The notes under the pieces are model-generated. The model saw nothing but the letters and a program-made list of their open reading frames with translations, was not told where the DNA came from and did no database searches. This document shows positions 6,202 through 10,410 of a stretch of DNA of 64,000 bases, piece after piece. Numbering within the stretch: position 1 is the first letter of the stretch; each line of letters begins with the position of its first letter. A program made the translations under genes and the position numbers. The stretch covers positions 186,001-250,000 of the forward strand of contig NZ_FNCS01000003.1 in NCBI RefSeq assembly GCF_900100665.1. The letters run 5' to 3'. The DNA is from Pelagibacterium luteolum. GTDB lineage: Bacteria > Pseudomonadota > Alphaproteobacteria > Rhizobiales > Devosiaceae.

Positions 6202-6324
6202 TCGCATAAGGCGTGCATTTTCGTCGCACTCGCGGGGTTTTCCCCCGCCAAGTGCCCGGAAAGCTTGTAACAACGACACGCCGTGCCATATTTGTGCCAA
6301 CGCAAATTGATCGGCACATCCACC

Positions 6325-7275
6325 ATGCACGCCAAGACAATCATCATCGGCTCGGGCCCGGCTGGCTACACAGCCGCCATATATGCAGCCCGTGCCATGC
6401 TGGAACCTCTCATGATCACCGGCATGCAGCCGGGCGGTCAGCTCACCATCACCACAGACGTTGAGAACTACCCCGGCTTTGCCGATCCCATCCAGGGCCC
6501 ATGGCTCATGGAGCAGATGCGCGCGCAGGCCGAGCATATGGGCACGAAAATCGAAAACGACCTGATCGTCGATGTCGATTTCAACAGCCGCCCTTTGCGC
6601 CTCTTCGGCGACAGCGGCAAAACCTACACTGCCGACAGTGTCATCATCGCTACCGGCGCCCAGGCCAAATGGCTGGGTCTACCGACGGAAGAAAAGTTCA
6701 AGGGCTTTGGCGTTTCCGCCTGCGCTACCTGCGACGGGTTTTTCTATCGCGACAAAACCGTTCTGGTGATCGGTGGTGGCAACACAGCGGTTGAGGAAGC
6801 CCTGTTCCTCACCAATTTCGCCTCCAAGGTCATCATCGCGCACCGCCGCGACCAGTTCTCGGCCGAAAAGGTCATGCAGCAGCGCCTGTTCAAGCACCCC
6901 AAGATCGAGGTGCGCTGGAACACCGTGCTCGATGAGGTAAAGGGCGACAACATGCCCCCTTCGGTCCGCGCTGCAACGCTGCGCAGCACGACCACGAACG
7001 AAACCAGCGAAATCGACGTCGACGGTATTTTCGTCGCCATCGGTCACGCTCCTGCCACGGACATCTTTGACGGTAAGCTCGAAATGAAGCACGGGGGCTA
7101 TATCGTCACCGCGCCCGATAGCACCGCGACGTCGGTTCCGGGGGTATTTGCCGCCGGCGATGTTACCGACGACGTTTATCGTCAAGCCGTCACCGCGGCG
7201 GGCATGGGCTGCATGGCAGCGCTCGAAGCGGAACGGTATCTGGCGGCACATGAATTGGCCGAAGCCGCGGAATAA
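6325..7275 (+). CDS. trxB: Thioredoxin reductase
   Basis: An NADPH- and FAD-dependent flavoenzyme that keeps thioredoxin reduced in the cytoplasm. The 316-residue protein has the FAD-binding GSGPAGYTAA (residues 9-18), the redox-active pair in SACATCDG (Cys133 and Cys136), the NADPH site GGGNTAVEEA, and the C-terminal FAD motif GVFAAGDVTDD. The start at 6325 (MHAKTIIIG) aligns with the family; the longer in-frame extension to 6283 does not. The LysR gene lies 70 bp downstream on the same strand. The gap holds a 7-bp hairpin (7298-7319) without a T tract. Confidence 0.96.
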   Translation: MHAKTIIIGSGPAGYTAAIYAARAMLEPLMITGMQPGGQLTITTDVENYPGFADPIQGPWLMEQMRAQAEHMGTKIENDLIVDVDFNSRPLRLFGDSGKTYTADSVIIATGAQAKWLGLPTEEKFKGFGVSACATCDGFFYRDKTVLVIGGGNTAVEEALFLTNFASKVIIAHRRDQFSAEKVMQQRLFKHPKIEVRWNTVLDEVKGDNMPPSVRAATLRSTTTNETSEIDVDGIFVAIGHAPATDIFDGKLEMKHGGYIVTAPDSTATSVPGVFAAGDVTDDVYRQAVTAAGMGCMAALEAERYLAAHELAEAAE

Positions 7276-7345: not shown

Positions 7346-8239
7346 ATGCTGGATTGGGATAAGCTGCGCATATTCCACATTGCCGCGGAATCGGGAAGCT
7401 TTACCCATTCCGCCGAAAAGCTCGGCATGTCCCAGTCTGCTGTGTCGCGGCAGATTTCCGCGCTGGAAGAAGATCTGGGCCTAAAGCTCTTCATCCGCCA
7501 CGCGCGCGGCCTTGTCCTCACCGAAGTGGGCGAGCAGCTTTTCCGTACGGCCCATCGCATGGCTTGGGAACTGCAGTCGGTCCAGGCTCAGATGACCGAG
7601 AGCCAGGACGTCCCAACCGGCCCCCTTCTGGTGACCACCACCGTCGGCTTCGGCTCGACCTGGCTGACCAAGCGCATCCACGAATTTGTCGAGCTCTATC
7701 CAACGATCCAGCTCGAGATCAAGCTCAACGACGCCGAGCTCGACCTTGCTATGCGTGAGGCCGACGTGGCGATCCGCCTGCATCGCCCGAACCAGTCCGA
7801 AATGATTCAGCGCAAGCTGTTCACCGTCCACTTCCATATCTATGCGTCCGAGAGCTACCTCGCACAGCATGGAACGCCGAGTTCCATAGAAGACCTTGAC
7901 GCGCACAAGATCATCACGTTCGGCGAGCCGTCGCCCTCCTATCTTGGCGACGTCAATTTTTTGGAGCGTATCGGCCGGCCCGATAATTCCCCACGCCGCA
8001 CGAGCCTCAAGGTCAACGCCATTTACGGTATGATGCAGGCTTGCCGCCAGGGAATCGGCATCGCAATGCTGCCCGACTACATCACTGAAGAAGAACCCAG
8101 CCTTCAGCGTGTCTTGACCGATATCGACCTGCCGGAATTCGAAACTTATTTCGTCTATCCGCCGGCCCTCAAGAACTCCAAGCGAGTCGGCGTCTTCCGC
8201 GACTTCCTGGTCGAAAAAGCCCGCGACTGGCAATACTGA
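7346..8239 (+). CDS. LysR-type transcriptional regulator, LsrB/VtlR-like
   Basis: A 297-residue LysR regulator with an N-terminal winged HTH (residues ~5-64, AAESGSFTHSAEKLGMSQSAVSRQISALEEDLG) and a periplasmic-binding-like effector domain (residues ~92-295, starting GPLLVTTTVGFGSTWL). In Hyphomicrobiales the gene after trxB is commonly lsrB/vtlR, a regulator tied to redox stress and to AbcR sRNAs. Here three such sRNA candidates follow directly, each behind the same palindrome, so they are its most likely targets. Family is certain; the LsrB/VtlR assignment rests on neighbourhood. Confidence 0.85.
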   Translation: MLDWDKLRIFHIAAESGSFTHSAEKLGMSQSAVSRQISALEEDLGLKLFIRHARGLVLTEVGEQLFRTAHRMAWELQSVQAQMTESQDVPTGPLLVTTTVGFGSTWLTKRIHEFVELYPTIQLEIKLNDAELDLAMREADVAIRLHRPNQSEMIQRKLFTVHFHIYASESYLAQHGTPSSIEDLDAHKIITFGEPSPSYLGDVNFLERIGRPDNSPRRTSLKVNAIYGMMQACRQGIGIAMLPDYITEEEPSLQRVLTDIDLPEFETYFVYPPALKNSKRVGVFRDFLVEKARDWQY

Positions 8240-8388
8240 CCCTATTTTCAGCCCGCACGCCTTGAGCAATCGCCGCACACGGGGGCAATTGCGTAAAAAT
8301 TTTGCCTGCCGGCGATCTCCCCTGCATACAAGAAATCGCTGCAAATCCGGGCACTTTGCTCATTACATGTGCATCGTTATGCAAAATT

Positions 8389-8405
8389 CACATGGCTGGC
8401 ATGTG
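8389..8405. promoter_or_regulatory. Palindromic operator of sRNA 1 (putative LysR box)
   Basis: The inverted repeat cacatg-N5-catgtg contains the core CATGGCTGGCATG (8391-8403), centred on T8397. A -35-like ttgtgg starts 19 bp later (8416-8421), and a -10-like taccta lies at 8439-8444. The core and the 19-bp spacing recur before the two downstream sRNA genes. Confidence 0.65.
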
Positions 8406-8450
8406 CTCGGCGGGGTTGTGGATGCACGATCTTAACTCTACCTATCCGCC

Positions 8451-8561
8451 AGACATTGCGCGCTTTTCCTCCTCCCTTTGGGCGCGTTTGATGTTCCCTC
8501 CTAACGAGAAGCTTGCTTCTCGTCCTAGGCCCCGCTCTCCCCTCGAGCGGGGCTTTTTTTT
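8451..8561 (+). ncRNA. Anti-Shine-Dalgarno sRNA 1 (AbcR/cuckoo-like)
   Basis: This is a predicted trans-acting sRNA of about 110 nt. A stem of gcgcg arms presents ttttcctcctcccttt (8464-8479) in its loop. An unpaired gttccctcctaa follows (8493-8503), then the hairpin acgagaagc/gcttctcgt (8504-8523). The Rho-independent terminator is gccccgct/agcggggc (8529-8553) with eight T; its loop also reads ctcccctc. Such C/U motifs pair with Shine-Dalgarno sequences. AbcR sRNAs of Rhizobiales repress many transporter mRNAs this way. The 5' end is inferred from promoter spacing. No convincing ORF lies here. Confidence 0.75.
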
Positions 8562-8623
8562 GCTCCGAGTTTCCCTGTGCCCATCCGATGAGCAGCCGAC
8601 GATCTCGACACTTGCACGAAATG

Positions 8624-8636
8624 CATGGCTGCCATG
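8624..8636. promoter_or_regulatory. Palindromic operator of sRNA 2 (putative LysR box)
   Basis: CATGGCTGCCATG, centred on T8630, lies exactly 19 bp before a -35-like ttttca (8649-8654). The -10-like catata (8672-8677) follows after 17 bp. It is the second copy of the shared box. Confidence 0.65.
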
Positions 8637-8683
8637 ACGTAACACTACTTTTCAAGTCGTGATTAGATTGGCATATAGAGCGG

Positions 8684-8871
8684 GTCACTGACGCAGCGCG
8701 CTTCTCCTCCTCCTCCCGAAGCCCCCTGCGAGGTGACATTAAAGAGCGGGAAGGTTCCTCCTCCTCCCTCCTGACCGCTCCTAAGGCCGTATTTTCGAAC
8801 CTCCTCCCTCGAAAAGCGGCCGCTAGTTTAGAGGCTCCACCGGTCCTCCCCGGTGGGGCCTCTCTTCTTTT
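8684..8871 (+). ncRNA. Anti-Shine-Dalgarno sRNA 2 (AbcR/cuckoo-like)
   Basis: This is a predicted sRNA of about 190 nt with three hairpins that each expose a CCTCCTCCC-type loop. The first is 8703-8716 inside gcttc/gaagc. The second is 8755-8773 inside gagcgg/ccgctc. The third is 8799-8808 inside ttttcga/tcgaaaa. The terminator stem 8831-8862 (with tcttcttttt) shows tcctccc in its loop as well. It is longer than sRNA 1 and carries more motifs, as if expanded by duplication. Mode of action is inferred from the motif. No ORF with a ribosome-binding site is seen. Confidence 0.75.
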
Positions 8872-8932
8872 TCAGCTTTGCCAATCCATGATGCCTGCAC
8901 ACAAAATGTGCATGCACTTAGGTCTGCCTAAT

Positions 8933-8947
8933 GCATAGCTGCTATGC
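8933..8947. promoter_or_regulatory. Palindromic operator of sRNA 3 (putative LysR box)
   Basis: The perfect inverted repeat gcatag-ctg-ctatgc, centred on T8940, lies 19 bp before the -35-like ttgtgg (8959-8964). A -10-like catatt (8982-8987) follows. It is the third copy of the shared box. Confidence 0.65.
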
Positions 8948-8993
8948 GGTATTGCGCATTGTGGGCGGGAACGGATCGGCTCATATTCACATT

Positions 8994-9187
8994 GTCGATG
9001 AGCGACGCGCCTTACTCCTCCTCCCAAGGCCCCTCGCTCTAGACACCGAACGGGCGATGTATCCTCCTCCCACATCCTTCGTTCAACCGACCTGAGCCGT
9101 CTCCTCCTCCCTCGGCAGGGTCGTAAACTGAGAGATTTGGGCTTTGCCCGGTCAAGGCTCCGTCTTCGGACGGAGCCTCTTTTTTTG
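8994..9187 (+). ncRNA. Anti-Shine-Dalgarno sRNA 3 (AbcR/cuckoo-like)
   Basis: This is a predicted sRNA of about 194 nt. Three hairpin loops carry tcctcctccc: 9014-9025 inside gcctt/aaggc, 9061-9071 inside gatgt/acatc, and 9101-9112 inside gccg/cggc. The terminator is a perfect 10-bp stem with a ttcg tetraloop (9155-9178) and a run of eight T. The array ends 9 bp before the stop codon of the convergent aminotransferase gene. Start inferred from the promoter-like elements at 8959-8987. Confidence 0.75.
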
Positions 9188-9195
9188 TGCTGCGG

Positions 9196-10410
<1,215 letters not shown>

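Follow-up and report, generated by a model that had tools for sequence, protein, structure and literature searches.

A putative LsrB-linked array of one AbcR-like and two alpha-r14/cuckoo-like small RNA genes in Pelagibacterium luteolum and other Devosiaceae

In bacteria that live in symbiosis with plants and in pathogens of plants and animals, LsrB/VtlR controls small RNAs (sRNAs). There its targets are scattered, and this control is mixed with a redox role. A locus of Pelagibacterium luteolum, a member of Devosiaceae, places three sRNA-like units next to a gene of an LsrB/VtlR-like regulator. The question is whether these units are copies of one gene, pieces of one transcript or separate genes of different RNA families, and what LsrB may do with them. 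The locus lies in a stretch of 64,000 nt (contig NZ_FNCS01000003.1), which is called the window below; all coordinates are window positions. A first-pass annotation of this DNA regarded the units as three tandem copies of AbcR with one, three and three C/U-rich hairpin loops, i.e., as an expanded riboregulator array.

The units, designated A, B and C, are flanked by the LysR gene on one side and a convergent aminotransferase gene on the other (Table 1). The gene order trxB-vtlR is well conserved across Alphaproteobacteria (PMC7486931), and the LysR gene of the window also follows a trxB-like gene. Its product matches the PDB chain 9hh1_A with an E-value of 7.2e-114 over residues 2-297, and the next best match has an E-value of 4.1e-38. 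The entry 9HH1 is named twice in the paper on Agrobacterium LsrB (PMC11975290). Thus, both the position after trxB and the nearest solved structure, that of Agrobacterium LsrB, assign the regulator to LsrB/VtlR, in agreement with the annotation. Proteins 91-96% identical to it are encoded in eight named loci, seven from Pelagibacterium and one from a Rhizobiales bacterium.

Table 1 Features of the lsrB locus of P. luteolum (window positions)
Feature	Position	Strand	Basis
trxB-like pyridine nucleotide-disulphide oxidoreductase gene, upstream of lsrB	6283..7275	+	ORF; Pfam Pyr_redox_2, 193 bits
LsrB/VtlR-like LysR regulator gene, 297 aa	7346..8239	+	Pfam HTH_1 and LysR_substrate; best PDB match 9hh1_A
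Putative LsrB operator of unit A, ACAT-N3-TG-N3-T at 8390-8402 (one mismatch to GCAT-N3-TG-N3-T)	8389..8404	+	18.3 bits, third best in window
Putative promoter of unit A, TTGTGG-N17-TACCTA	8416..8444	+	read by eye; no hit in consensus scan
Unit A, AbcR-like sRNA (putative)	8451..8561	+	CCUCCUCCC-loop hairpin, GUUCCCUCC linker, small hairpin, terminator; fold z -5.6
CCTCCTCCC loop of unit A	8468..8476	+	unpaired 0.97
GTTCCCTCC (linker GUUCCCUCC, C/U-rich, outside any stem), possible counterpart of the second AbcR motif GTTCCCCTC	8493..8501	+	
Terminator of unit A	8527..8555	+	terminator scan
Putative LsrB operator of unit B, GCAT-N3-TG-N3-T at 8623-8635	8622..8637	+	20.4 bits, second best in window
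Unit B, alpha-r14/cuckoo-type sRNA (putative), three CCUCCUCCC hairpins	8684..8872	+	ar14 49.8 bits; fold z -7.5; covariation
Three CCTCCTCCC loops of unit B at 8709, 8760, 8800	8709..8808	+	motif count, folding
Terminator of unit B, six-base loop UCCUCC	8830..8863	+	terminator scan, folding
Putative LsrB operator of unit C, GCAT-N3-TG-N3-T at 8933-8945	8932..8947	+	21.1 bits, best in window
Putative promoter of unit C, TTGTGG-N17-CATATT	8959..8987	+	read by eye
Unit C, alpha-r14/cuckoo-type sRNA (putative), three CCUCCUCCC hairpins	8994..9184	+	ar14 37.0 bits; fold z -4.8; covariation
Three CCTCCTCCC loops of unit C at 9017, 9063, 9103	9017..9111	+	motif count, folding
Terminator of unit C	9155..9178	+	terminator scan
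Class I/II aminotransferase gene, convergent, closes the array	9196..10398	-	ORF; Pfam Aminotran_1_2, 267 bits

The sequence CCTCCTCCC occurs seven times in the window, always on the plus strand and within units A-C, against 0.72 copies expected; none of 100 shuffles reached seven. Each unit was folded (z scores of the MFE against shuffled sequence are given in Table 1). The folds leave the motifs in loops, one in unit A and three each in units B and C, just as had been annotated, and burial of the motifs was not seen. The mean unpaired probability is 0.97-1.0 for six of the seven copies and 0.68 for the copy at 9063, which is partly paired in the MFE structure. A terminator-like hairpin with a T run ends each unit, so the annotated division into three separately terminated sRNA-like units is confirmed. 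The scan found five terminator-like sites in positions 7800-9800, one nested in the terminator of unit B and one on the other strand, compared with 1.7 in shuffles.

The promoter-like elements claimed for the units need qualifying. A scan with the E. coli-type consensus found no promoter at the three proposed places; it gave one weak match elsewhere, with 0.8 expected. By eye, a hexamer is seen near each unit (TACCTA for A, CATATA for B and CATATT for C), and each of them ends seven bases ahead of the proposed start. The starts themselves (8451, 8684 and 8994) are inferred positions.

Operator-like sites were scored with a matrix of 20 sites that had been picked, by pattern or by eye, from the DNA following lsrB in other families of the order; these were chosen after the window boxes were known, which makes the scores mildly circular. 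The three best sites of the window are distributed one per unit. Simulation of 60 windows gave no more than 19.8 bits for a best site and 16.2 bits for a third-best one. Each site of the window begins 62 bp before the proposed start, a spacing that hinges on the inferred starts. In Sinorhizobium meliloti the LsrB/VtlR site GCAT-N3-TG-N3-T lies at -61 to -49 of the abcR1 promoter (PMC8844928), and LsrB binds and activates the nfeR1 promoter as well (PMC10746234). The boxes of B and C match this published site exactly and that of A with one difference, all at the same distance. Units B and C carry an operator-like site at the published position and may have an LsrB-dependent promoter, a trait of alpha-r14 RNAs. 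In relatives, 104 of 119 multi-motif units have a site scoring 12 bits or more ahead of them, in most cases 84-86 bases from the first motif. The same holds for 52 of 65 single-motif units, where the distance to the motif is in most cases 78-82 bases; none of 184 shuffled regions has such a site. The pattern GCATNNCTGNCATG has four exact matches in the 4.3 Mb genome, namely the box of unit B and three inside open reading frames. With at most one mismatch allowed, the operator pattern has 120 matches in this genome against 20 for the reversed pattern, which may reflect either a wider regulon or base composition. An operator scan done on one strand of eight ar14 loci of other families gave mixed scores.

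The cuckoo RNA family is defined by two to four adjacent hairpins, each with the loop CCUCCUCCC. Units B and C, with three hairpins each, agree with this definition. A rival reading is that one long LsrB-controlled transcript is cut into pieces in the manner of Rhodobacter CcsR1-4, as opposed to three independent genes. In its favour, the units lie head to tail on one strand, and the Rfam model CcsR1 (RF02791) matches unit B, although with 31.5 bits it stays below the cut-off of 65.3. The Rhodobacter CcsR RNAs share the motif and are cut from one precursor, which also includes a DUF1127 gene and has an RpoHI/RpoHII promoter (PMC10253847). In the P. luteolum genome, however, none of the five DUF1127 matches lies on the contig of the window. 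A single precursor would also not be expected to have a terminator-like hairpin closing each unit or, as is the case for most units in relatives, an own operator-like site at near-fixed spacing, while the spacing between units varies widely among relatives. We therefore consider a single precursor very unlikely.

The array is not confined to P. luteolum. A multi-motif unit, i.e., one with at least two motifs and a terminator, was found within the sequence covered downstream of lsrB (up to 3 kb) in 61 of 80 named family loci, and 37 of the 80 have the order single, triple, triple. The 19 loci without such a unit include four with less than 1.1 kb of downstream sequence (L046, L049, L073 and L107) and three in which the multi-motif unit lies further along the same contig (L179-L181); among the other twelve, L112 and L114 carry single-motif units only. 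At the level of whole genomes, the triple-motif pattern is present in 107 of 136 genomes of the family, and the reversed pattern is absent except in one (G058). The exact triple pattern is missing from the remaining 29 genomes, and the units of some relatives carry two motifs or one. Counted by hand in the 82 genomes with both coordinates listed, triple-motif units lie at most 5 kb downstream of lsrB on the same strand in 79; in three they lie on other contigs. One genome (G077) has an extra triple-motif unit at C1:108600-108695, on a contig other than that of its lsrB array. Of the annotated expanded riboregulator array, the array thus stands and the local expansion does not, since the set is family-wide.

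Compensatory change has preserved the stems of units B and C, a sign of selection at the RNA level. An alignment of 32 unit B sequences has 89.8% of its cells paired, and both sides have changed in 36 of 53 pairs; the values for 31 unit C sequences are 92.3% and 31 of 52. The consensus structures were derived from the same alignments, which favours them. None of 500 shuffles reached the real values for either unit, and structures slid by 1-3 columns fall to 26-48% paired. The gap to these controls is so large that a chance origin of the covariation is unlikely. For unit A, 24 chosen family sequences gave 16 predicted pairs, six of them with double changes.

Which RNA families do the units belong to? 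At gathering scores, Rfam has no match in the whole window. The model ar14 gives 49.8 bits for B, 37.0 for C and 29.0 for A, all below its cut-off of 58.8. Orthologues of unit B exceed the cut-off in two of 20 loci scanned (L041, 61.0 bits; L057, 59.0 bits) and in the genome G130 (62.2 bits). Alpha-r14 RNAs have three hairpins with unpaired CCUCCUCCC and variable stems; this was found in B and C, the copy at 9063 being unpaired at 0.68. Units B and C also have the anatomy given for NfeR1 and for SmelA075 and SmelA099, two RNAs from a survey of 2011, in which several hairpins have the same CCUCCUCCC loop on stems that vary (PMC3927594, PMC10746234).

The linkage of these RNAs to lsrB is peculiar to the family within the data covered. 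Among 55 genomes of other families with both coordinates listed, compared by hand, no listed ar14 match shares a contig with lsrB at a distance below 100 kb; lsrB and a listed ar14 match share a contig in 18 and lie on separate contigs in 37. The nearest match on one contig is 186 kb from lsrB (G254). An ar14 search of the P. luteolum genome at E <= 1 gave no further convincing copy of B or C among the matches inspected, those at C14:600218 and C31:262936. It also returned weak matches at C8:7005 and C37:149501 (E about 0.2); at the same threshold sub-cut-off matches are also obtained in three of 14 control genomes. The C31:262936 match has no motif and extends into the end of a coding region; it was set aside as chance.

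Another ar14 match of this genome, L003:1505-1620 (G000:C14, about 600218-600336), lies directly after a DUF2852 gene and contains CCCTCCTCCC, GGTTCCCTCC and a hairpin; the unit A model scores it with 30.1 bits. It is a candidate 3'-UTR sRNA. No LsrB-type box was found there on the strand scanned (best score 8.2 bits). At two further loci (L174 and L175), nine copies of CCTCCTCCC within 400-450 bases make up three closely spaced tandem units of the alpha-r14 type with three motifs each. About 460 bases upstream of them, the strand scanned has a single strong operator-like site.

The model ar15, which describes AbcR, has no match in positions 8230-9220 even at E <= 10. With stricter filters, it has none at E <= 0.01 in the P. 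luteolum genome and the 14 other genomes of the family that were sampled. Across the order, ar15 matches exceed the cut-off in 20 of 297 genomes and reach E <= 0.01 in 66. Nevertheless, the place of the array is that of AbcR, directly downstream of trxB-lsrB; in Agrobacterium and Sinorhizobium, too, abcR1 and abcR2 lie beside lsrB, downstream of vtlR in the former (PMC7486931, PMC8844928). AbcR also carries two distinct anti-Shine-Dalgarno motifs, the second being GUUCCC(C)U. Only unit A has both, and its second motif is short, hence a weak sign taken alone. Of the 55 family loci with a single-motif first unit, 48 have GTTCCCTCC after the loop, whereas just 2 of 119 multi-motif units contain GTTCCC. 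The sRNA that directly follows lsrB in other families has the layout of unit A; there, GTTCCC[CT]TC lies within 1.5 kb downstream of lsrB in 23 of 40 loci.

A model of unit A gives 97.5 bits on unit A of the window, whose sequence is part of the model, and it is unspecific: unit B of the window scores 31.8 bits and unit C 32.2 bits, and further units in relatives reach 52.6 bits. Apart from L003, its best score in 85 kb of other sequence from the same genome is 14.1 bits. The two AbcR-like copies of L158 and the two of L133 aligned with it in register (24.3, 18.7, 23.2 and 17.8 bits), and so did the first motif alone of L121. At other AbcR-like loci three alignments were poor or out of register, and so was that of L141. 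Because the model also scores B and C and misaligns on AbcR-like loci, we call unit A AbcR-like and not AbcR; its possible homology to AbcR rests mostly on place, layout and two short motifs. An alignment of AbcR-like sequences from other families (19 rows, picked by the GTTCCC motif) was rejected as a model source, its consensus structure being poor (8 pairs). As the rows were selected by GTTCCC, the invariance of this motif in them is no evidence.

These results bear on the reading that abcR was multiplied locally beside lsrB, so that the units would be three AbcR paralogues in tandem, two of them with a multiplied motif. Besides the place of the array, the CCUCCUCCC motif and the operator-like sites common to all three units speak for it. 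Still, the best Rfam match of the motif hairpins in each unit is ar14 and never ar15, unit B orthologues surpass the ar14 cut-off, GTTCCC is nearly confined to single-motif units, and the set is family-wide. This reading is unlikely, and three AbcR copies, as first annotated, are not supported: only unit A has the AbcR position and layout. The array rather appears to consist of one AbcR-like and two alpha-r14/cuckoo-like genes, an old trait of the family and not a recent expansion of AbcR.

Other families offer two observations on the region downstream of lsrB. In L144 and L146 (family f24) there is a GTTCTCCCCTCTGGAT stretch like the second AbcR motif and no obvious first C/U hairpin; these loci possibly carry a reduced AbcR. 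In L156 (family f37) there are three tandem sRNA-like units, each with two C/U stretches (CTCCTCCC and a shorter one). Triplets of this kind beside lsrB may therefore have originated repeatedly.

We next turn to the regulator. LsrB of A. tumefaciens has a conserved cysteine pair, C144/C273, and C273 matters for peroxide resistance (PMC11975290). The LsrB protein of the window has valine at both positions and one cysteine in its whole length. In an alignment of 81 LsrB proteins of the family, none has cysteine at either position. Among 23 aligned LsrB proteins of other families (from 40 loci), each of the two cysteines is present in two and absent in 21. Hence thiol sensing via C144/C273 looks like a lineage trait. 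Since the redox pair is missing, the signal sensed by LsrB of the window is probably different from that of Agrobacterium LsrB.

Taken together, the locus is best explained as a one-place LsrB riboregulon, in which three sRNAs with anti-Shine-Dalgarno loops, each a gene of its own, would be activated by LsrB and would silence many mRNAs; we assign this reading a probability of about 0.8. By analogy with the relatives, LsrB would bind at three promoters that come right after its own gene, each with one operator ahead of it, and would activate transcription of A, B and C separately. Unit A would be the AbcR counterpart, with one CCUCCUCCC loop and a GUUCCC linker motif, and B and C would be of the alpha-r14/NfeR1/cuckoo type with three exposed CCUCCUCCC loops each. 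The loops would pair with purine-rich Shine-Dalgarno regions and so block translation of many mRNAs. In S. meliloti AbcR1/2 silence transport and metabolic mRNAs via two anti-Shine-Dalgarno motifs, and AbcR1/2 bind Hfq while NfeR1 does not (PMC8844928). Therefore unit A may need Hfq and units B and C may not. The targets are most likely uptake and metabolic genes.

A search for targets found GGGAGGAGG 2-10 bases before an ATG six times in the genome, against three times for the reversed pattern, which is a weak and uninformative difference. Four of the six frames were translated, and two of the products (155 aa and 271 aa) resemble, by eye, a transporter subunit and a TIM-barrel isomerase; this is not evidence. 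The weak enrichment of perfect sites and the presence of seven identical loops at one place would also be compatible with RNA sponges or decoys, whose C/U loops titrate purine-rich RNA, ribosomes or another sRNA instead of silencing particular mRNAs. We regard this as quite improbable: the three identical motifs of S. meliloti NfeR1 contribute redundantly to inhibition of translation (PMC8844928).

A further proposal goes beyond the riboregulon itself. LsrB of Devosiaceae might be a dedicated non-redox switch of a one-place sRNA regulon, in which one AbcR-like and two NfeR1-like RNAs act in parallel and their seven identical anti-Shine-Dalgarno loops form a multivalent brake on uptake and metabolism. 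We put this forward tentatively and hold it to be rather doubtful. If it is true, the old conserved job of LsrB is control of adjacent anti-Shine-Dalgarno RNAs, and cysteine-based peroxide sensing in Agrobacterium and Sinorhizobium is a later addition.

No report of such an LsrB-linked arrangement was found in listings of open-licence papers. The parts are known, and their gathering in one place appears to be new. Judging by sequence features, AbcR-like and NfeR1-like RNA types share one place in Devosiaceae: counterparts of the two LsrB-controlled sRNA types of S. meliloti stand side by side at lsrB, each with an operator-like site, and the regulator has no redox cysteine pair. Devosiaceae include cultured environmental strains. 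Because both sRNA types adjoin an lsrB without the redox pair in a cultured family, the array makes it testable whether an sRNA brake is the core job of LsrB, and also which signal LsrB responds to and what the benefit of a repeated identical anti-Shine-Dalgarno loop is.

The array can be compared with three known systems. The cuckoo RNAs CcsR1-4 of Rhodobacter share with units B and C the tandem hairpins with CCUCCUCCC loops; unlike them, units A-C each have their own terminator and operator-like site, and their contig has no DUF1127 match. AbcR1/AbcR2, or alpha-r15 (RF02345), resemble unit A in being the first sRNA after lsrB and in having one C/U-loop hairpin, GUUCCC, a terminator and a putative LsrB-type operator. 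Unit A differs from them by its full CCUCCUCCC loop, shorter second motif, other stems, single copy and lack of an ar15 match. Units B and C are most similar to NfeR1, or alpha-r14 (RF02344), of Sinorhizobium and its relatives, with which they share hairpins with CCUCCUCCC loops and variable stems and, putatively, a promoter with an LsrB-type site. In contrast to NfeR1, they have three such hairpins before a separate terminator and are about 190 nt long instead of 115 nt (PMC8844928), and, unlike alpha-r14 in the 55 genomes of other families compared, they adjoin lsrB.
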